A stretch of 64,000 bases of DNA, taken from assembly GCA_016191845.1 (NCBI GenBank), contig JACPVF010000016.1, positions 372,001-436,000 of the forward strand, given 5' to 3'. Numbering within the stretch: the stretch's first letter is position 1; every line of letters begins with the position of its first letter. This document shows, piece after piece, positions 3,522 to 14,491 of the stretch. This DNA is from Chloroflexota bacterium. GTDB taxonomy: Bacteria > Chloroflexota > Anaerolineae > Anaerolineales > Villigracilaceae. The position numbers and the translations under genes were made by a program. Under the pieces are notes generated by a model. It was not told the origin of the DNA, made no database searches, and worked only from the letters and a program-made list of their open reading frames with translations.

Positions 3522-5595
3522 TTACGGCAGGCTGAAGGCCCTGACGAGGAAGACGGCCATCTGGTCGCGGGTAACAGGTGTGGAGGGACAGTAGTTGCCA
3601 TTTCCGCAGCCGCCCGTGATGCCCTCGTTGGCAAGTTGCTCGATCCAGTCTACAGCCCAGTAGGCATTAGGTACGTCACTGAAGAGACCCGTGGCTGCAG
3701 GCGGAGTATAGCTGCCGCCATGCTCTCCGCGCAGGAGGAAAACCGCCATCTGGTCGCGGGTGACAGGTAGGGTGGGACAATAATCCCCATTCCCGCACCC
3801 ACCTGTGATACCCTCGTTGGCGAGTTGTTCGATCCAGTCTGCAGCCCAGTAATCGGCTGGCACATCCGCGAACGTGGTGCCAGTTGCGGCGGGCGGAGTG
3901 TAGGCGGAGCCATGTTCTCCGCGCAGGAGGAAGACCGCCATCTGGTCGCGGGTGACAGTGACGGTGGGACAATACTTCATCGGGTTAGTCGAGCATCCGC
4001 CGGTCACGCCCGCATTATAGAGACGCTCGATGTAGGTATTGGCCCAATTGCTGAAGGGGACATCTGTAAAGATGGGCGGGATGATGTCGCCGTCCAGTTT
4101 GGATACAAAGATGTCATATCCGCCTGTGTGGCTGGTCAGATTGGCGGTGCCGGGACCGGGGTCGAAATCGACCGTCCCTGTAAACGATCCAATCGTGAAC
4201 ATATTACCTTGTGTATCCACAGCGATCTTGCTGCCACCGTCGTAAGAATCCCCCCCCATACCCTTCGCCAGGACAAGGTTGCCGTTGCTGTCCCATTTGG
4301 AAATGAAGATATCGCTATCGCCTGCGCTGGTCAGGGTGTATACTCCGGGTCCGGGGTCAAAATCGAGGGTTCCGATAAAAGCGCCTGTCACATACACATT
4401 ATCGCTGATGTCCACGGCTATGCTTTTGCCTATGCCACCAGCAGTATTAGGCTGTTGGGCCCCCATTTCATTTTCCCAAATGATATTGCCATTATTGTCG
4501 AACTTGAAGATTACGATGTAATCGATCATGGGAAAAGGAAATGATGGGCTATGATATGACGATGCGAGGACAGCATCATAGCCCGTTGCCAGAATATTGT
4601 TGCCCGAGTCCAAGGTGATAGCTTTGATGCCTGTAGCTACCTTCTCGGCCAGGACGAAATTGCCGTTCCCATCCAGTTTGCTTAGGAATCCGCATTGCGC
4701 ACCCGGGTAACTGCAATCTAGGTTGAATTCTCCCGTCCCGGGGTCAAAATCCCCCACGCCTGCGAAGTTTCCTGCTGTGTATATGTTGCCTGTCGTATCC
4801 ACCACAATAGCTAGCAAATGCGCATCCAATGTGCCCATGCTGCTCCCTGTGATCTTCGCCAGGACGTAGTTACCGTTGGCATCCAGTTTCGAGACAAAGG
4901 AAACCATAGCTCCTGAACTTGTGAAGGTTAGATTTGCCTTGCCCGGACCGGGATCGAAATCGACCGTGCCCACAAAGTGCCCCGTGGTGTAGATGTTGCC
5001 GGCCGCATCCACTGCAATGCCGTACCCCTCAGCCCAGGAGTATTTCCCACCCATATCCCTGACTTTGACAAAGTTGCCACTTCCATCCAGTTCGGCGATA
5101 TAGAGATCACAAGAACCGATGCTGGTCGCCCGGACCCGGATCGAAATCGACCGTGCCGCAAAACCTGCCTGTGACATAAACATTGCCATTGGCATCCAGG
5201 GCAATGGCGTTGCTGGTCGTGACGGCCGTGTATGCATTCGGGCCGCTCCCGCCCATGTTTTTGGCCCAAACAAAATTGCCATTGCTGTCCAACTTGGAGA
5301 CAAAGATATCAAACCCTGTGCTGGTTAAGTTGAAGGTGCCTGGACCGGGATCGAAATCGATCGTGCCGCCAAATCGGCCCGTTGTATACACATTGTCATT
5401 CGAGTCGATGGCGAGGCTGATTGCCTCACCCACGTCTGAGGCGCTCCAGTTTTTCGCCCACAGGTAATCGCCATCTGCGAGGAGCGGACGGGATGGCGAC
5501 TTGGCTTGGGCCAGGGTGGACGGAATCCCCACGATTGCTGTCAGCAATACGAGGATCGCAATGACATTGAAGACGAGTTTGTATTTGCCGTGCAT
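3522..5595 (-). pseudogene. SLH-anchored SBBP-repeat surface protein with frameshift
   Basis: Two overlapping frames together encode one protein of about 690 aa: signal peptide, about eight SBBP-type repeats (GNVYVTGRF-GTVDFDPGPG-x4-LTS...SKLD), then three SLH repeats ending VTRDQMAVFLVRAFSLP. The start chosen is the ATG at 5595, because AGGAGG lies 8 nt upstream; the ATG at 5601 is only 2 nt from it. The upstream frame is intact to GTVDFDPGPG, and the frame changes at 5127/5128. The downstream frame resumes at TSIGSCDLYIAELD. Other repeats have four residues (such as TFNL) between DPGPG and TS. Here only the G of such a codon remains, which fits an 11-nt deletion. It is either a real broken gene or an assembly error. 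Confidence 0.8.
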
Positions 5596-5717
5596 GAACA
5601 TATCCTCCTTAATATGATCGAACCTTTTCGTTTGTACATACCCACAATGATTCTACACCCGCCTTCCGAAAAAGATATTCTTCGTATCAGTAATTTACTA
5701 GAATTTTCTCATAAATA

Positions 5718-6635: not shown

Positions 6636-8045
6636 ATGACTGACGACGCAAAGATCCTCGAAGATATTGGTGAATACAAGTACGGCTTCCACGACCGTGA
6701 TGACAATTATGTCTTCAGGTCTCAAAAGGGACTGAGTCGCGAGGTGGTCGAAAATATTTCGCGCATGAAGGGCGAGCCGCAGTGGATGCTCGAGTTCCGC
6801 CTCAAGGCGCTGGAGCACTTCCTCAAACGCCCGATGCCGAACTGGGGTCCTGAGTTGAAGGAACTCGACCTCGACAACATCTATTACTACGTCAAGCCGA
6901 CCGAGAAGAGCGAGAAGTCCTGGGATGATGTGCCCGATGACATCAAGCGCACCTTCGATAAACTCGGCATCCCCGAGGCCGAGCGCAAGTTCCTGGCAGG
7001 CGTGGGCGCGCAGTACGAGTCCGAGATGGTGTATCACTCCATTCAGGAGCATCTCGAAAAGCAGGGCGTGATCTTCCTCTCCATCGAGGACGGTCTGCGC
7101 CAGCACCCTGACTTGTTCCGCGAATACTTCGGCACGGTCATCCCGATCGAAGACAACAAGTTCGCCGCGCTGAACTCGGCGGTCTGGTCAGGCGGATCGT
7201 TTGTGTACGTGCCGAAGGGCGTCAAAGTGGATTTGCCTTTGCAGGCCTATTTCCGCCTGAACACGGCCAACGTCGGTCAGTTCGAGCGCACGCTGATCAT
7301 CGTGGACGAGGGCGCGCAGGTCCACTATGTGGAAGGCTGCACTGCGCCGCAATACACCACCGACTCGTTCCACTCGGGCGTGATCGAGATCATCGTCAAG
7401 AAGGGCGCACGCTCGCGCTACTCGACCATCCAGAATTGGTCCACGAACGTCTACAACCTGGTCACCCAGCGCGCCAAGGTTTTCGAGAACGGCACGCATG
7501 AATGGGTGGACGCCAATCTTGGCTCCAAGGTCACGATGAAATATCCGTCCTGTTACCTGATGGAACCAGGTGCACATGGCGAAATGCTCTCGATGGCCTT
7601 TGCTGGCCCTGGCCAGATTCAGGATGCAGGCTCGAAGATGGTGCACTTTGCGCCGAACACCACCAGCAAGATCACGTCCAAGTCGATCAGCAAGGCAGGC
7701 GGGCGCGCTTCCTATCGCGGCCTGCTCAAGGTCTACAAGGGCGCCAAGGGTGTCAAGTCCAATGTGGTCTGTGACGCGCTGCTGCTCGACCCCAAGTCCC
7801 GCTCTGACACGTATCCCTACATCGAGATCGATGAAGATGACGTCACCATCGGCCATGAGGCCTCGGTCTCGAAGGTCGGTGAGGAACAGCTCTTCTATCT
7901 CATGTCGCGCGGCCTGAGCGAGGAAGAGGCCACGACCATGGTCGTCTCGGGCTTCATCGAACCGCTTGTCAAGGAACTGCCGATGGAATACGCCGTCGAG
8001 ATGAACCGCCTGATCCAGCTCCAGATGGAAGGCAGTATTGGATAA
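6636..8045 (+). CDS. sufB: Fe-S cluster scaffold protein SufB
   Basis: Core scaffold subunit of the SufBCD complex. 469 aa from the ATG at 6636, with TTGGAGA upstream. An in-frame extension back into sufC exists but has no ribosome-binding site or homology. The family pattern is clear: an N-terminal helical region ([18 protein letters not shown]), the beta-helix core ([19 protein letters not shown]) and the C-terminal half ([20 protein letters not shown], then [14 protein letters not shown]). Second gene of the operon. SufB and SufD (8148-9491) are distant paralogues that form the heterodimeric core bound by SufC. Confidence 0.97.
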
Positions 8046-8050
8046 ATCCG

Positions 8051-8128
8051 CCCTGAGCGGAAGAGCCGAGCGAAGGCGAGGCTCTGAAGTCGAAGGGCGC
8101 TTCGACTTCGCTGCGCTCCGCTCAGCGC
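8051..8128 (+). repeat. nested palindromic intergenic element (sufB/sufD)
   Basis: Three nested or adjacent inverted repeats fill the 102-nt gap: outer CTGAGCGGA/TCCGCTCAG, middle AGAGCC/GGCTCT, and inner GAAGTCGAAG/CTTCGACTTC with a 4-nt loop. It resembles REP/BIME-like dispersed elements and could fold as a branched RNA hairpin. Confidence 0.65.
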
Positions 8129-8147
8129 GTATTCATGGAAAATAAAA

Positions 8148-9491
8148 ATGCAGGAAAAACCAAAAGTTACAGTTTCAAGGACTCGACGGGCTGACTCTGC
8201 CGCAAAGGATTTCGTCTTCACCCAGGCGGATATCCGCGCTGTGGACGGAACCGCCGCCTCCTTCCGTGCCCAGGCCTGGGAAGCGTTTAAGCGGCTTTCC
8301 CTCCCCGCGGTTGTTGATGAGCCGTGGCGCCGCACCGACATTCACGCCCTGCCCACCGACCAGTTTGTCCTCCCGAAGGAGGACGCTTTCGAAGACCTGC
8401 CGCCTGTCCGCGAGGATTTGCTCAAGCCGCTGACGGCGAATCAGCATGGTGGACAGATCGTCCTGCTGCCTGGTGGTTCGAAGATCGACCTCGATGAGAA
8501 ACTTGCCAGGCAGGGCGTGATCTTCACCGACCTGAAGACCGCCGAACAGAAGCACCCTGAATTGTTGGCTCGGATGCTCGGCAAGACCGTCAACGTAGAG
8601 GAAGGCAAGTTTGCTGCACTGGCTGGCGCTTTCGCGCAGAACGGCGTCGTGCTGTATGTCCCCAAAGGTGTGACGGTCGAAGAGCCATTGCACTCCGTGT
8701 TGTGGGGTCCGGGCGCGAACCTGGCGCATGTCTCGCATGTCCTCGTCCTGATAGATGAAGGTGCGTCGGTGACCTACGTCCACGAGGCGGCTTCACCCGA
8801 TGAGACGGGCGTCAACTCGATGCATGCAGGCAGCGTCGAGATCCAGGTCATGCAGGGTGCGTCCCTTCGTTTCGTGGAGCTTCAATCCTGGGGTCGCCAT
8901 GTCTGGAACTTCAGTCACGAGCGTGCCCGCGTCGAACGCGACGGCAACCTTGACTGGATCTTCGGCGCGATTGGTTCGCGCCTGACCAAGAACTTCTCCG
9001 AGTTGGATCTGGCGGGGCAGGGTGCCACAGGCCGCATGTCGGGCTTCTACTTCACCGACGGCAACCAGCACCTCGATCACGACACCCAGCAGAACCACCT
9101 GGCTCCCAACACCACCAGTGACTTGCTCTTCAAGGGTGCGCTGAAAGGTAAGAGCCGCTCGGTATGGCAGGGCATGATCTACGTCGCCCCTGGTGCGCAG
9201 AAGACCGACGGCTACCAGGCCAACCGCAATCTGGTCCTCAGCGACCAGGCCCGCGCCGATTCGATCCCTGGCCTCGAGATCCTCGCCGACGATGTGCGCT
9301 GTACCCATGGTGCGACGGTCGGCAAGCTTGAAGCGGAACCGCTCTTCTATCTCAAGTCGCGCGGTATTCCGCAGGCCGAAGCCGAGAAGATCGTTGTGGA
9401 AGGTTTCTTCGATCCGATCTTCCAGCGTATCCCATTCGAAGGTGTGCGCGAACGGTTCCAACAGTATATTGCTGATAAAATGAGTGTGTAA
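8148..9491 (+). CDS. sufD: Fe-S cluster assembly protein SufD
   Basis: SufD subunit of the SufBCD scaffold, 447 aa. The N-terminal helical part contains EAFKRLSLP and EPWRRTDIHALP, typical of SufD. The beta-helix core shares YVPKGVTVEEPLHSVLW with SufB. The C-terminal part has NLVLSDQARADSIPGLEI, then CTHGATVGKLEAEPLFYLKSRG and the terminal AEKIVVEGFFDPI. Starts at the ATG at 8148 with only a weak purine tract (GGAAAATAAAA), just after the palindromic element at 8051-8128. Third gene of the suf operon. Confidence 0.96.
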   Translation: MQEKPKVTVSRTRRADSAAKDFVFTQADIRAVDGTAASFRAQAWEAFKRLSLPAVVDEPWRRTDIHALPTDQFVLPKEDAFEDLPPVREDLLKPLTANQHGGQIVLLPGGSKIDLDEKLARQGVIFTDLKTAEQKHPELLARMLGKTVNVEEGKFAALAGAFAQNGVVLYVPKGVTVEEPLHSVLWGPGANLAHVSHVLVLIDEGASVTYVHEAASPDETGVNSMHAGSVEIQVMQGASLRFVELQSWGRHVWNFSHERARVERDGNLDWIFGAIGSRLTKNFSELDLAGQGATGRMSGFYFTDGNQHLDHDTQQNHLAPNTTSDLLFKGALKGKSRSVWQGMIYVAPGAQKTDGYQANRNLVLSDQARADSIPGLEILADDVRCTHGATVGKLEAEPLFYLKSRGIPQAEAEKIVVEGFFDPIFQRIPFEGVRERFQQYIADKMSV

Positions 9492-9496
9492 TACAA

Positions 9497-9521
9497 TGCC
9501 TGGCGAAAATTTCGCCAGGCA
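9497..9521 (+). terminator. hairpin between sufD and downstream gene
   Basis: Perfect 11-bp stem TGCCTGGCGAA/TTCGCCAGGCA with a 3-nt loop, followed by AAAATCTCTTTTC rather than a clean T run. It could be a partial terminator or attenuator inside the suf operon. Confidence 0.55.
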
Positions 9522-9544
9522 AAATCTCTTTTCAAGGACAGTCC

Positions 9545-9925
9545 ATGAGCAAGACACGTGTCATCCAGGTTCAACCCGTCCCTGCGGAATCTGCGGGTAA
9601 AACCCGAGCAGCGCGCTCGGGTCGACAATTCTCCTATATGCGCGCCCCTGGGGCGGAGCATGCCTTTGAGGTGGGCGACAACGTCGAGGTCTTCTGCGAC
9701 CACGAGAAGAATAACGACCGCATCCGAGGCTGGATCAAGGGCATCGTTGTACAGGTTGACAACAAGATGGTGGCTGTCCAGTTCCGCTCGAACGTATTCC
9801 TGACCGACGGCTGGATGGTGCCCGATCGCATCCTCTGGTATCCGCTGACCTCGGAGCACATCCGCCCCGTCAGCGGCGGGAAGAAAGCCGCCTCCAAGAA
9901 GGAAAAGGAAATTCCTGATTACTAG
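9545..9925 (+). CDS. unknown basic beta-barrel-like protein in suf operon
   Basis: 126-aa protein of unknown function, starting at an ATG preceded by AAGGACAGTCC. The N-terminus (1-40) and C-terminus (105-126, Lys-rich) look disordered and basic. The middle (about 38-100) is beta-rich: a FEVGDNVEVFCD strand, WIKGIVVQVDNKMVAVQF, then GWMVPDRILWYPL. This pattern resembles small SH3/Tudor/Agenet-like barrels, but that is inferred from appearance. It lies between sufD and sufS on the same strand, so it may serve Fe-S assembly or its regulation. No cysteine-rich cluster motif is present. Confidence 0.75.
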   Translation: MSKTRVIQVQPVPAESAGKTRAARSGRQFSYMRAPGAEHAFEVGDNVEVFCDHEKNNDRIRGWIKGIVVQVDNKMVAVQFRSNVFLTDGWMVPDRILWYPLTSEHIRPVSGGKKAASKKEKEIPDY

Positions 9926-9926
9926 C

Positions 9927-10012
9927 CGTCATTGCGAGGGCGTAGCCCGAAGCAATCTCCTGTATTTTTGAAACTTGAGATTGCTTCGCTCCCTTCGGTC
10001 GCTCGCAATGAC
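9927..10012 (+). repeat. dispersed palindromic repeat, copy 1 (before sufS)
   Basis: Begins CGTCATTGCGAG and ends CTCGCAATGAC, with inner arms GAAGCAATCTC and GAGATTGCTTC around a short AT-rich loop. It fills the spacer before sufS. Related copies lie at 11255-11368 and 14395-14484, with a short remnant at 26708-26735. Confidence 0.85.
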
Positions 10013-10022
10013 TATTCCATTT

Positions 10023-11249
10023 ATGTCCCTCAACATCGAACAAATCCGCAAAGACTTTCCCATCCTCGCGCGTGAGACCCAACCTGGCACGCGCGTGGTT
10101 TATCTCGATTCCACGGCCACCAGCCAGAAGCCACTGGCCGTCATCGAGGCGATGAACGATTTCTATCGCCGCTCGAACGCCAACATCCATCGCGGCGTGC
10201 ACACCCTGGCCGAAGAATCCACGGCCATGTACGAAGGCGCGCGCGAGAAGATCGCCAAGTTCATCAATGCCGTCTCGTCACGTCAGGTTATTTACACGCG
10301 CAACACCACCGAGTCGATCAATCTCGTGGCTTATTCCTGGGCGCGCGCTAACCTCAAGGCGGGTGACCTCGTCGTCCTGACCGAGATGGAGCACCACTCG
10401 AATCTCGTTCCCTGGCACATGCTTCAGGCGGAACGCGGCATTGAGTTGGAATTCATCCCCGTGACTGGGGATGGGCTGCTCGACCTGGACGTGTACCGCG
10501 CCCTTCTGACTCGCGGCCCGAAGCTGGTCTCGTTTACGCACATGTCCAACGTCCTTGGCACGATCAACCCCGCTGCTGAGATCATCCGTCTGGCTCACGA
10601 GGCTGGCGCGCTGACTTTGGTGGACGGGGCTCAATCGGTCCCGCATTTGCCGGTGGACGTGCAAGCCCTCGACGCCGACTTCCTGGCCTTCTCCGCGCAC
10701 AAGATGTGCGGTCCGACAGGCATCGGCGCCCTCTACGGAAAAGCGGACCTACTCGAAGCCATGCCGCCCTTCCTCGGCGGTGGCGATATGATCCGCGAGG
10801 TCAAACTGCGCTCCTTCCGCCCGAACAGCCTGCCGCACAAATTTGAGGCGGGCACGCCCGCCATCGCGGAAGCGGTCGGCTTCGGGGCGGCGGTCGATTA
10901 TTTGTCCCAGCTTGGCATGGACGCGGTGGCCGCGCACGAACATGCCATTACCGAATACGCGCTCGAACGTCTGGAGGAAATTCCTGGCGTGAAAGTCTTT
11001 GGCCCGTCTGCCGATAAGAAGGGCGGGGTGGCAGCCTTCACGCTCGAAGGCGTTCACCCGCACGATGTGGCCCAGATCCTCGACCAGGACGGCATCGCTG
11101 TCCGCGCGGGACATCACTGCGCCCAGCCGCTGCACGAGAAATTCAACATCCCTGCCACCAGCCGCGCTTCGTTCTACATCTATAACACAAAGGATGAAGT
11201 CGACCTGCTGGTGAACGGGATTTACAAAGTCAAGGAAATGTTCGGATAA
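10023..11249 (+). CDS. sufS: cysteine desulfurase SufS
   Basis: PLP-dependent group II cysteine desulfurase that removes sulfur from cysteine and passes it to SufU for Fe-S assembly. 408 aa from the ATG at 10023 (MSLNIEQIRKDFPIL), which matches the family N-terminus. Upstream in-frame ATGs lie in or next to the palindromic repeat and would add a non-homologous leader. The PLP lysine is K227 in FSAHKMCGPTG; the persulfide cysteine is C366 in AGHHCAQPLH. No clear Shine-Dalgarno precedes the start, so translation may depend on the repeat-derived leader. Confidence 0.96.
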   Translation: MSLNIEQIRKDFPILARETQPGTRVVYLDSTATSQKPLAVIEAMNDFYRRSNANIHRGVHTLAEESTAMYEGAREKIAKFINAVSSRQVIYTRNTTESINLVAYSWARANLKAGDLVVLTEMEHHSNLVPWHMLQAERGIELEFIPVTGDGLLDLDVYRALLTRGPKLVSFTHMSNVLGTINPAAEIIRLAHEAGALTLVDGAQSVPHLPVDVQALDADFLAFSAHKMCGPTGIGALYGKADLLEAMPPFLGGGDMIREVKLRSFRPNSLPHKFEAGTPAIAEAVGFGAAVDYLSQLGMDAVAAHEHAITEYALERLEEIPGVKVFGPSADKKGGVAAFTLEGVHPHDVAQILDQDGIAVRAGHHCAQPLHEKFNIPATSRASFYIYNTKDEVDLLVNGIYKVKEMFG

Positions 11250-11254
11250 TTTAC

Positions 11255-11368
11255 GTCATTGCGAGCTCCCCGTTCTTTGGGGAGCGAAGCAATCTCATGT
11301 TTTCTGAAACCACGAGATTGCTTCGTCGGGATTTCGGCGCTGCGCGCCTCAACCCTCCTCGCAATGAC
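11255..11368 (+). repeat. dispersed palindromic repeat, copy 2 (before sufU)
   Basis: Same outer ends as copy 1 (CGTCATTGCGAG ... CTCGCAATGAC) and same inner arms (GAAGCAATCTC / GAGATTGCTTCG). The distal arm carries extra sequence. It fills the sufS-sufU spacer and ends just upstream of the sufU ribosome-binding site. Confidence 0.85.
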
Positions 11369-11380
11369 ATCGGAGAACTC

Positions 11381-11776
11381 ATGGACGATCTCTATCGCGA
11401 AGTCATCATCGAGCACTACAAGAATCCCTCCTATCGCGGACATCTCGACCCGCACGACATCTCCTTTGCGGACAATAATCCGCTGTGCGGAGACCACATC
11501 CAGGTTGATCTGCGCGTAGACAATAACGGCATCGTGACCGACGCCCGTTTCGACGGTCATGGATGCGCCATCTCGCAGGCCTCCGCTGATTTGTTGATGG
11601 AAACCATCATCGGCAAACCTGTCGAAGAAGTGAAGCAGCTCAACAAACAAGATGTGCTCGACATGCTCGGCATCGACCTGGGTCCCGTGCGCCTGAAATG
11701 TGCGTTGTTGTCTCTCAAGGTTTTGAAGGCTGGTGTCTATGGGTTGGGCGAAGCCAGTGATTCTTTGGTGGAATAA
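11381..11776 (+). CDS. sufU: Fe-S assembly sulfur-acceptor protein SufU
   Basis: Zinc-dependent sulfur acceptor for SufS, of the IscU/NifU-N fold. 131 aa from the ATG at 11381, with CGGAG 6-10 nt upstream. The in-frame extension to 11297 comes from the palindromic repeat. The expected ligands are present: C36 in NPLCGD (with D38), C62 in GHGCAIS and C107 in RLKCALL. The C-terminus (KAGVYGLGEASDSLVE) overlaps the next gene by about 20 codons. A copy of this 3' end reappears at 12319 as part of a tandem duplication. Confidence 0.93.
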   Translation: MDDLYREVIIEHYKNPSYRGHLDPHDISFADNNPLCGDHIQVDLRVDNNGIVTDARFDGHGCAISQASADLLMETIIGKPVEEVKQLNKQDVLDMLGIDLGPVRLKCALLSLKVLKAGVYGLGEASDSLVE

Positions 11777-12242
11777 CAACAGAAAACCAGTTCTCAAGAT
11801 TTTTCTTCTTTGCGCTGGTTTGGTTGGCTTATGCCTTCTTGTTTTGATGTTTTCAGGTCCCTTGATAAGTAAATATGTGTTTTGTACCAGCGCAGCGAGG
11901 TTAAATAATACTATTAGTGTAGAATTATCTGGGATGCCTGAAGCGACCTCGTATAAGGTTACCTTTCATTTTCCCCAAGAGGAGACGCGATCAGTTTCTT
12001 GTGTCTTCGGAAACGAGGATCTAAGGAACGGGTGCAAGAAAAACGGTGCGTTTGTTTATATGAACCCTGAATCCTATGCTCCAGAAAGTTTTTCTTTGAC
12101 CGTTTTGATTAATGAAAAGCAGATTTCAAAAACCTTTCATCCTCTTTACAGGAAAAACAGGCCATTTTGGAATAATTGTCCTATTACTGACTACGACGAA
12201 ACAGTTCTTTTGACTATCCCTGATGATTTCTTTGGTGAATGA
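11757..12242 (+). CDS. small single-pass membrane protein, copy A
   Basis: Unknown protein of about 161 aa. It aligns along its length with the protein at 12349-12828, which suggests the GTG at 11757 as start; an in-frame ATG at 11739 is an alternative. It has a short basic N-terminus with a WW pair, one hydrophobic segment (about residues 14-36), then an extracytoplasmic domain. Four cysteines are shared with copy B (FCTS, SCVF, NGCKK, NNCP), suggesting two disulfides. Its AT-rich composition contrasts with the GC-rich suf genes, so acquisition by transfer is plausible. It overlaps the end of sufU by 20 nt. No recognised family. Confidence 0.7.
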   Translation: MILWWNNNRKPVLKIFLLCAGLVGLCLLVLMFSGPLISKYVFCTSAARLNNTISVELSGMPEATSYKVTFHFPQEETRSVSCVFGNEDLRNGCKKNGAFVYMNPESYAPESFSLTVLINEKQISKTFHPLYRKNRPFWNNCPITDYDETVLLTIPDDFFGE

Positions 12243-12243
12243 C

Positions 12244-12333
12244 ATGTTCAACTACACAGCTTTGGATGAAACTAAAGTCGACTTTATAGAGATCGTCTCC
12301 GCCTCCGAGCTTCCCAATGGCTGGTGTCTATAG
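12244..12333 (+). pseudogene. truncated duplicate of the Rieske gene 5' end
   Basis: MFNYTALDETKVDFIEI begins exactly like the intact gene at 12835. After 26 codons (…LPNG) it jumps into a copy of the sufU 3' end and stops after three more codons (WCL). It is the left breakpoint relic of the tandem duplication. It could be translated as a 29-aa peptide, but no function is expected. Confidence 0.85.
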
Positions 12334-12348
12334 ATTGGGGGGTGAGTA

Positions 12349-12828
12349 ATGAGTTGGTGGAGTGAACATAAGAAGCATATTCTTTTGCCTCTTGCAGGTT
12401 TTGTGATTTTGGTTGGAGTATTGATTACTTCATTGATGCTCCTTGGCCCTGTGATCGGTGACACATTCTCTTGTACTTTGGTAGTTTGTTTTGGCTCTAT
12501 ACATGTAGATGTGTTTGATTTACCAGCCTCCGAGCCTTATCTTGTCAAATTTGAATTTCCCTCAGGTAAAACAGAATATGCTTATTGTAGGGTGGGTGAG
12601 TTCAATTTTGAGGAAGGTTGTAGCGAAACTGGAGCACATATTTTTACGGCTCCAGATGTTATACCTGAGAATGAAGTGCTTGTAACGATCATGGTTAATG
12701 GTAAACAAGTCTCAGAAAGGTTTTATCCTGAATATAAAAAAACGCAGCCAAATGGTAAGAATTGTGCCCCAACGTGCTATTATGCTGCAGTAAACATGAC
12801 TATTCCTAAAACAATTTTTTCACGGTGA
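12349..12828 (+). CDS. small single-pass membrane protein, copy B
   Basis: 159-aa paralogue of copy A: N-terminal MSWWSEHKKH, hydrophobic segment at about 11-34 followed by GP(V/L)I, then an extracytoplasmic domain. That domain keeps cysteines at SCT, YCRV, EGCSE and NCAP plus a few extra. Shared motifs with copy A include F-FP near the middle and (I/V)N-KQ(I/V)S--F-P-Y near the end. GGGGGGTGAGTA precedes the ATG. Also AT-rich. It ends 6 nt before the Rieske gene, which implies co-transcription. Function unknown; a surface or envelope role is inferred only from topology. Confidence 0.75.
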   Translation: MSWWSEHKKHILLPLAGFVILVGVLITSLMLLGPVIGDTFSCTLVVCFGSIHVDVFDLPASEPYLVKFEFPSGKTEYAYCRVGEFNFEEGCSETGAHIFTAPDVIPENEVLVTIMVNGKQVSERFYPEYKKTQPNGKNCAPTCYYAAVNMTIPKTIFSR

Positions 12829-12834
12829 AGGATT

Positions 12835-13182
12835 ATGTTCAACTACACAGCTCTGGATGAAACTAAAGTCGACTTCATAGAAATTGCCCCCGCCTCTGAG
12901 CTTCCCAATGGCGAGCGACTTTTCGTGGAAGTGGCCGATCGTCCGATTGTGATCTTCAATATCGCGGGCCAGCTTTTTGCCATTGGCGACGTCTGTACCC
13001 ACGATGATGGTCCGCTGGGAGACGGCGACCTGGAAGGCTACAACATCGTCTGTCCGCGCCATGGAGCGGAATTCGACGTCCGTACGGGCAAGGTCATGCA
13101 GATGCCCGCCGTGGTGGATATCCCTGCCTATCCCGTCCAGGTGCGGGATGGGAATATTTATATCGGCATCCCGAAGGAATAA
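12835..13182 (+). CDS. Rieske [2Fe-2S] ferredoxin
   Basis: Small soluble Rieske-type electron carrier, 115 aa. The [2Fe-2S] ligands are C54 and H56 in CTHDDG and C73 and H76 in CPRHGAEF, with no signal peptide. It is similar to the ferredoxin components of aromatic-ring dioxygenases and to stand-alone Rieske proteins that often follow suf genes. Starts at an ATG with GAAGG upstream and ends in a strong terminator. Its position as last gene of the suf transcript fits a cluster-bearing client or partner of the Suf machinery. The redox partner cannot be named. Confidence 0.93.
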   Translation: MFNYTALDETKVDFIEIAPASELPNGERLFVEVADRPIVIFNIAGQLFAIGDVCTHDDGPLGDGDLEGYNIVCPRHGAEFDVRTGKVMQMPAVVDIPAYPVQVRDGNIYIGIPKE

Positions 13183-14394: not shown

Positions 14395-14484
14395 TGTCAT
14401 GGCGAGGGCGTGCTCTTCGCCCGAAGCAATCTCCTTTTATATGGAGGTTGCTTCGTCGGGCAGAACACCCTCCTCGCAAAGACA
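14395..14484 (+). repeat. dispersed palindromic repeat, copy 3
   Basis: TGTCATGGCGAGG ... CTCGCAAAGACA outer ends with GAAGCAATCTCC / GGAGGTTGCTTCG inner arms. It is slightly decayed relative to copies 1 and 2. It lies between the methyltransferase and PIG-L genes. Confidence 0.8.
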
Positions 14485-14491
14485 TGCCTTT

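Follow-up and report, generated by a model that had tools for sequence, protein, structure and literature searches.

We analysed a window of 64,000 nucleotides (G000:C15:372001-436000) from a Chloroflexota genome of 4.63 Mb in 18 contigs. It contains a SUF operon with the order SufBD-family gene, small gene, class-V aminotransferase (as in SufS), sufU and Rieske. The sufU gene (11381..11776, forward strand, as are all features below) encodes a 131 aa SufU/NifU_N scaffold (NifU_N, E=7.2e-30), and the full Rieske ferredoxin-type gene (12835..13182) encodes 115 aa (Rieske, E=2.6e-20). A first-pass annotation of this DNA had described a 591-bp tandem between the two genes. The tandem is real, as both repeat pairs are spaced exactly 591 bp apart. 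The Rieske repeat (12244-12321 / 12835-12912) is 71/78 identical, the value that had been reported, and the sufU-tail repeat (11728-11748 / 12319-12339) is 90% (19/21) identical. When a 2-nt gap is allowed, the sufU similarity extends to the sufU stop codon (12319-12365), with 11 substitutions in 47 aligned bases.

Unit 1 comprises the sufU tail (11728-11776), gene A (to 12242) and a Rieske stub (12244-12321), and unit 2 comprises the sufU-tail copy (12319-12365), gene B (12349-12828) and the full Rieske gene (12835-13182). Both units are exactly 594 nt long, with full-length relatives at 550, 581 and 599. Each unit had been drawn as running from the sufU tail through a small gene to the Rieske start, which stands, except that gene A begins within sufU. 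This ORF (11739..12242; ATG 11739, or the alternative start GTG 11733) encodes an N-terminal transmembrane (TM) helix and an ectodomain, and the last 38-44 nt of sufU double as its start in the +1 frame. Gene B (12349..12828) is predicted to encode a TM helix (residues 8-31) followed by an eight-strand beta-sandwich ectodomain with six family cysteines.

The stub (12244..12321) is the first 26 Rieske codons. It runs into the sufU-tail copy as a 29-codon mini-ORF (12244..12333, ending at TAG 12331-12333) that might be translated. The junction, read from the sequence, is GGC (12319..12321), a 3-bp microhomology between Rieske codon 26 and a sufU tail. The tail copy itself (12319..12365) derives from the final 49 nt of sufU and has shrunk to 47 nt, in which a 2-nt deletion and the 11 substitutions have closed the sufU frame. 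Just upstream of the gene B ATG, the decayed tail contains GGGGGGTGA (12337..12345), a putative Shine-Dalgarno-like stretch that may bind ribosomes. Both genes would be translated from the SUF operon.

The cassettes had also been described as AT-rich in a GC-rich operon, in agreement with GC contents of 0.39-0.42 in 300-base windows within the cores vs 0.51-0.64 in windows over 8000-11749. Terminator-like sites numbered 7 vs 2.1 in shuffles, with none within 11740-12830, and sigma-70-like sites showed no excess (2 vs 2.9 in shuffles). A dispersed repeat lies at 11254-11370 and 14422-14485 (GAAGCAATCTC / GAGRTTGCTTCGTCGGG, and CCCTCCTCGCAA-GACAT at two places), and similar text occurs upstream of sufU in a congener (G001).

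Two homologous proteins of an unnamed family

Proteins A and B are approximately 31% identical over their cores (50/159 aligned residues), close to the roughly 30% previously judged by eye. Their alignment score of 232 lies far above that of 500 shuffles (mean 9.6, sd 5.3, maximum 31), and B as query finds A in its own genome with E=4.2e-24. The two cores are homologous, and homology and profile searches found these two copies only in the genome.

The AlphaFold2 model of B (mean pLDDT 88, pTM 0.68) has a TM helix at residues 8-31 and eight strands, in line with the single transmembrane helix claimed at first, here followed by an ectodomain. The ectodomain model matches common beta-sandwiches no more than moderately; its arrangement resembles that of transthyretin/CnaB-type domains, with Z about 5.2-5.6 for transthyretins and 5.5 for a CnaB2 domain; the best of all rows in the structure comparison was a DUF4876 protein (Z 7.0 over 79 residues, rmsd 2.5). 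It differs from that type in that every Z is below 8 and no PDB sequence matches. Foldseek with the B model returned nothing at E≤0.001, the best hit being 4ilt, a dioxygenase domain (E 0.0094, TM 0.36).

Neither protein had a notable match in Pfam, in NCBIfam or among PDB sequences. The earlier statement that they match no known family thus holds for those three resources, but relatives are present in other Chloroflexota genomes. We ran profile searches over 152 genomes of the same taxonomic family. At the sufU-Rieske place, G001 (same genus), G153, G124 and G164 carry full-length homologues, and G160, G161 and G143 have N-terminal forms of 50-53 aa. A wider profile (E≤1e-4) matched 7/152 genomes, namely G000 itself, those four, and G143 and G148, in which the family members are lipoproteins located elsewhere. 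At order level 12/400 genomes matched at E≤0.001, own genome included, among them lipoproteins in G272, G275, G281, G215 and G313, and at class level 5/396 matched at E≤1e-4, again with the own genome included.

Cysteines C42, C80, C91 and C139 (B numbering) are invariant in 14/14 family members, and C47 and C143 are present in 13/14, A being the member that misses both. Four kept cysteines had been noted in the pair; A does keep four, whereas B and most relatives have six that are conserved. Because A misses both C47 and C143 while the other members have both, the sequences suggest that these two residues form a pair. A and B belong to an unnamed six-cysteine Chloroflexota family of anchored beta-sandwich domains, defined in this analysis, and an extracytoplasmic domain family that Pfam and NCBIfam do not name comes to light. 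The proteins would function outside the cytoplasmic membrane; an immunity-like or receptor-shielding role is our guess.

Several other matches were set aside. Profile A2 matched 25/152 genomes at E≤0.01, most via weak matches of the TM segment, and those weak matches were dropped, since 14/16 such loci read (own ones included) carry Flp-pilin-like TM stretches. Three tandem small pilin-like TM genes, approximately 300 bp apart, lie at G000:C13:366329-367034. Matches to phrog_15511 (3/7 proteins scanned), which point to no function, begin in the proline/threonine-rich linker of the lipoproteins and were also discarded. PADLOC matched 0/14 family members, a tblastn search of plasmids with B gave no match, and a literature search on the Rieske/SufU operon of Chloroflexi found nothing.

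The sufU-Rieske interval in related genomes

The Rieske gene is present in 134 genomes of the taxonomic family, and the locus was read in 116 of these 134. In 111/116 loci, own genome included, sufU lay in the stretch, and these 111 form the surveyed set. A full-length gene is at the site in 5/111 loci (G000 having two) and a short form in 3/111, leaving 103/111 with neither. Three further loci hold other genes: two different acetyltransferase-like ORFs, named by eye (L147 in G062 and L086 in G141), and a second Rieske (L035 in G011). The remaining 100/111 have 0-170 bp between sufU and Rieske. The three short forms (L043, L044 and L046) all end NFC before the stop, and may represent a 50-aa TM version that has been maintained.

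This survey lends no support to a role in Fe-S assembly, given the 103/111 loci without the gene, full-length or short, at the site. The SUF operon is probably the address of the A and B genes, not their function. At 77/111 loci the +1 frame across the end of sufU encodes WW, so that part of the N-terminus at sufU is largely a by-product of sufU coding. Here the 3' end of a conserved Fe-S assembly gene also carries, in a second frame, the start of another gene. We mapped the full, short and absent states on a SufU+Rieske tree of 83/111 loci, which were selected by genus and clean length; the tree is a quick one, in which few forks are supported and one row (G156) is misaligned. At least 5 changes were needed, so the gene is patchily distributed. 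A single full-length copy sits here in the congener and in three genomes from another genus. Among the surveyed genomes the tandem occurs solely in G000, and no strain had A alone or B alone.

Relative age of the cores and the flanks

Conserved ends around a diverged middle could reflect a tandem duplication of recent date, after which diversifying selection rapidly changed one core or both, one of three options raised at first. The flanks are 91% identical vs 31% for the cores, the units are of identical length, and A had the longer branch in an 8-row core tree (1.25 vs 0.86 for B), all of which fit such a history. Synonymous sites contradict it. At residues common to A and B, 16/24 fourfold sites differ, compared with 1/9 in the Rieske repeat (Fisher p=0.0066; the repeat has only these nine fourfold sites), and synonymous codon differences at shared residues were 25/50 in the cores vs 5/24 in the repeat (p=0.023). 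Selection on amino acids cannot cause near-saturated synonymous sites at shared residues, and cores no older than their duplicated flanks, as a recent duplication entails, are not what was found, unless the stub was converted.

In the one species pair that serves as the synonymous-rate control, the closely related G164 and G124, the core does not run faster than its flanks: core dS was 0.10-0.11 vs 0.13 for sufU and 0.11 for Rieske, and dN/dS was 0.35 in the core vs 0.02 in sufU and 0.18 in Rieske. The core of this pair is under relaxed purifying selection. With a core synonymous rate equal to that of the flanks and a dN/dS of 0.35, rapid change following a recent duplication fails to account for what is seen, and we consider it highly improbable. 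Instead, the near-saturation of the cores relative to the Rieske repeat indicates that the core is older than the repeat appears to be. Where the ends of a tandem pair are conserved but its middle is diverged, the pattern can thus mislead; here the synonymous sites suggest that two old versions were joined, and not that one of them diverged fast.

The divergence between A and B is like that between versions of different species and genera. The closest version to B is D of G153, from another genus, at 44% identity, compared with 31% for A. Core trees do not settle which core is sister to which. In a 15-row tree A and B were sisters with support of 79/70, which is not strong, and none of the four alternatives tested was rejected (B+D p=0.13, A+C p=0.25, A+B+C p=0.30, B+D+E p=0.29). 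In the 8-row tree A+B was not rejected either (p=0.39), and A+B+C was marginally rejected (p=0.04), a result that vanished with more rows.

The Rieske stub and the sufU-tail copy

The stub matches the full Rieske copy of its own genome at 71/78 positions, and the other 110 loci match the stub or the full copy at ≤65/78. Since the congener matches the full copy at 55/78 only, the repeat looks younger than the split between the two genomes; a 71/78 match is not unusual among close species, being reached by 13/5995 other locus pairs. Five of the 7 differences are synonymous (P=0.03 if neutral; dN 0.034, dS 0.37), an excess from which the stub and the full copy seem to have diverged earlier as working Rieske genes. 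The 2 nonsynonymous differences are both stub changes; the base found in the full copy is retained there by 97 and 102 of 110 relatives, respectively. Such changes at conserved positions are expected of a stub that no longer functions.

Divergence is greater in the sufU copy than in the stub (11/47 vs 7/78 changed, p=0.035), possibly a sign that the stub was converted or constrained. The sufU copy carries stop codons in the sufU frame as well as the 2-nt deletion, whereas the sufU tails of all 111 loci run in frame to a stop without such a deletion. This bears on whether the tandem is an assembly chimera of two strains. The two units do resemble two haplotypes, and the 18-contig genome may be a metagenome bin. 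The join, however, overlaps by just 3 bp, and a copy that was already non-functional in a real genome argues against an artefact; we give a chimera the least credence of the readings considered.

Origin of the tandem

The pattern is probably best explained by two old, strongly diverged versions that were joined by recombination between lineages, the second version being brought in. This corresponds to recombination with another family member through the flanks, which fits best of the three options first proposed. The equal 594-nt units are a coincidence under this joining and count against it.

They favour an old tandem duplication within the lineage, in which the cores diverged over a long time and the stub stayed similar through conversion by the intact Rieske gene. 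The sister placement of A and B at 79/70 (not strong) in the 15-row tree and the greater divergence of the sufU copy also speak for that history. On the other hand, the congener and the three genomes from another genus have one full-length copy, and B resembles D of G153 more closely than it resembles A. A near-saturated core (16/24 fourfold sites) implies a genus-level age, over which a sufU copy of 47 nt without function, still 36/47 identical, should have vanished unless it was converted too. We therefore regard an old duplication as unlikely, although it deserves more weight than the other alternatives.

Under the joining of two versions, the sufU-Rieske site of this lineage harbours a patchily distributed gene for a small membrane-anchored ectodomain, starting in the +1 frame over the sufU 3' end, and recombination between lineages would have brought versions A and B together. 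The simplest single step would be homology-facilitated illegitimate recombination. Incoming DNA with a sufU tail, one version and a Rieske start may have paired by homology on one side and been joined on the other via the 3-bp microhomology, fusing Rieske codon 26 to a sufU tail. The same result could come from a simple tandem duplication in which one core was later replaced by homologous recombination. Afterwards the sufU-tail copy would have decayed into a leader for gene B, with the Shine-Dalgarno-like stretch and a new ATG. We infer both the route and which copy came second.

Comparison with known systems

Homology-facilitated illegitimate recombination is known from naturally competent species and from conjugation in E. 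coli (PMC3240628). For the orphan immunity-gene arrays of the Vibrio cholerae T6SS, something akin to it between strains is suggested by Kirchberger et al. 2017 (PMC5361080), where the mechanism is likewise a proposal. Those arrays also stack small protein genes of different origin at one locus, and their feature of diverged relatives in tandem with flank remnants is present at the sufU-Rieske locus. Unlike in Vibrio, no effector or secretion gene was seen beside the site (no toxin or secretion protein among seven neighbourhood proteins scanned with Pfam), and the likeness here is one of DNA arrangement only. Homology-assisted illegitimate recombination has also been proposed for some of the small variable segments found in bacterial genomes (Touzain et al. 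2010, PMC2884548). These too are short variable stretches between conserved flanks; sufU-Rieske differs in having two alternatives in tandem in one genome.

Integron gene cassettes are small AT-rich genes, as are A and B, but the copies at the sufU site share flanking genes and not attC. The family lipoprotein of G148 (L045, G148:C95) has an attC-like repeat on either side, the two belonging to a row of four with spacings of 673, 782 and 704 bp, and that of G143 (L064, G143:C52) follows one such repeat. A strict attC-like pattern found 0 sites in the window, and the same pattern found only 1/4 of the L045 repeats. Our more speculative and rather doubtful extension is that sufU-Rieske is a swap site, at which species exchange members of a surface-domain family that integron cassettes also carry; its genes would start in the +1 frame of the sufU 3' end and stack as tandem versions, possibly as an immunity-like repertoire riding on an essential operon.

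Elsewhere in the genome, two integron integrases above the NCBIfam cut-off lie near contig ends (G000:C15:1859-2800 and C13:474113-475051), and an attC-like site adjoins the latter. Within the window, overlapping ORFs on the reverse strand (5107-5601 and 3522-5312, spanning 3522-5601) look like one repeat-rich secreted protein, apparently split by a frameshift or a sequencing error.
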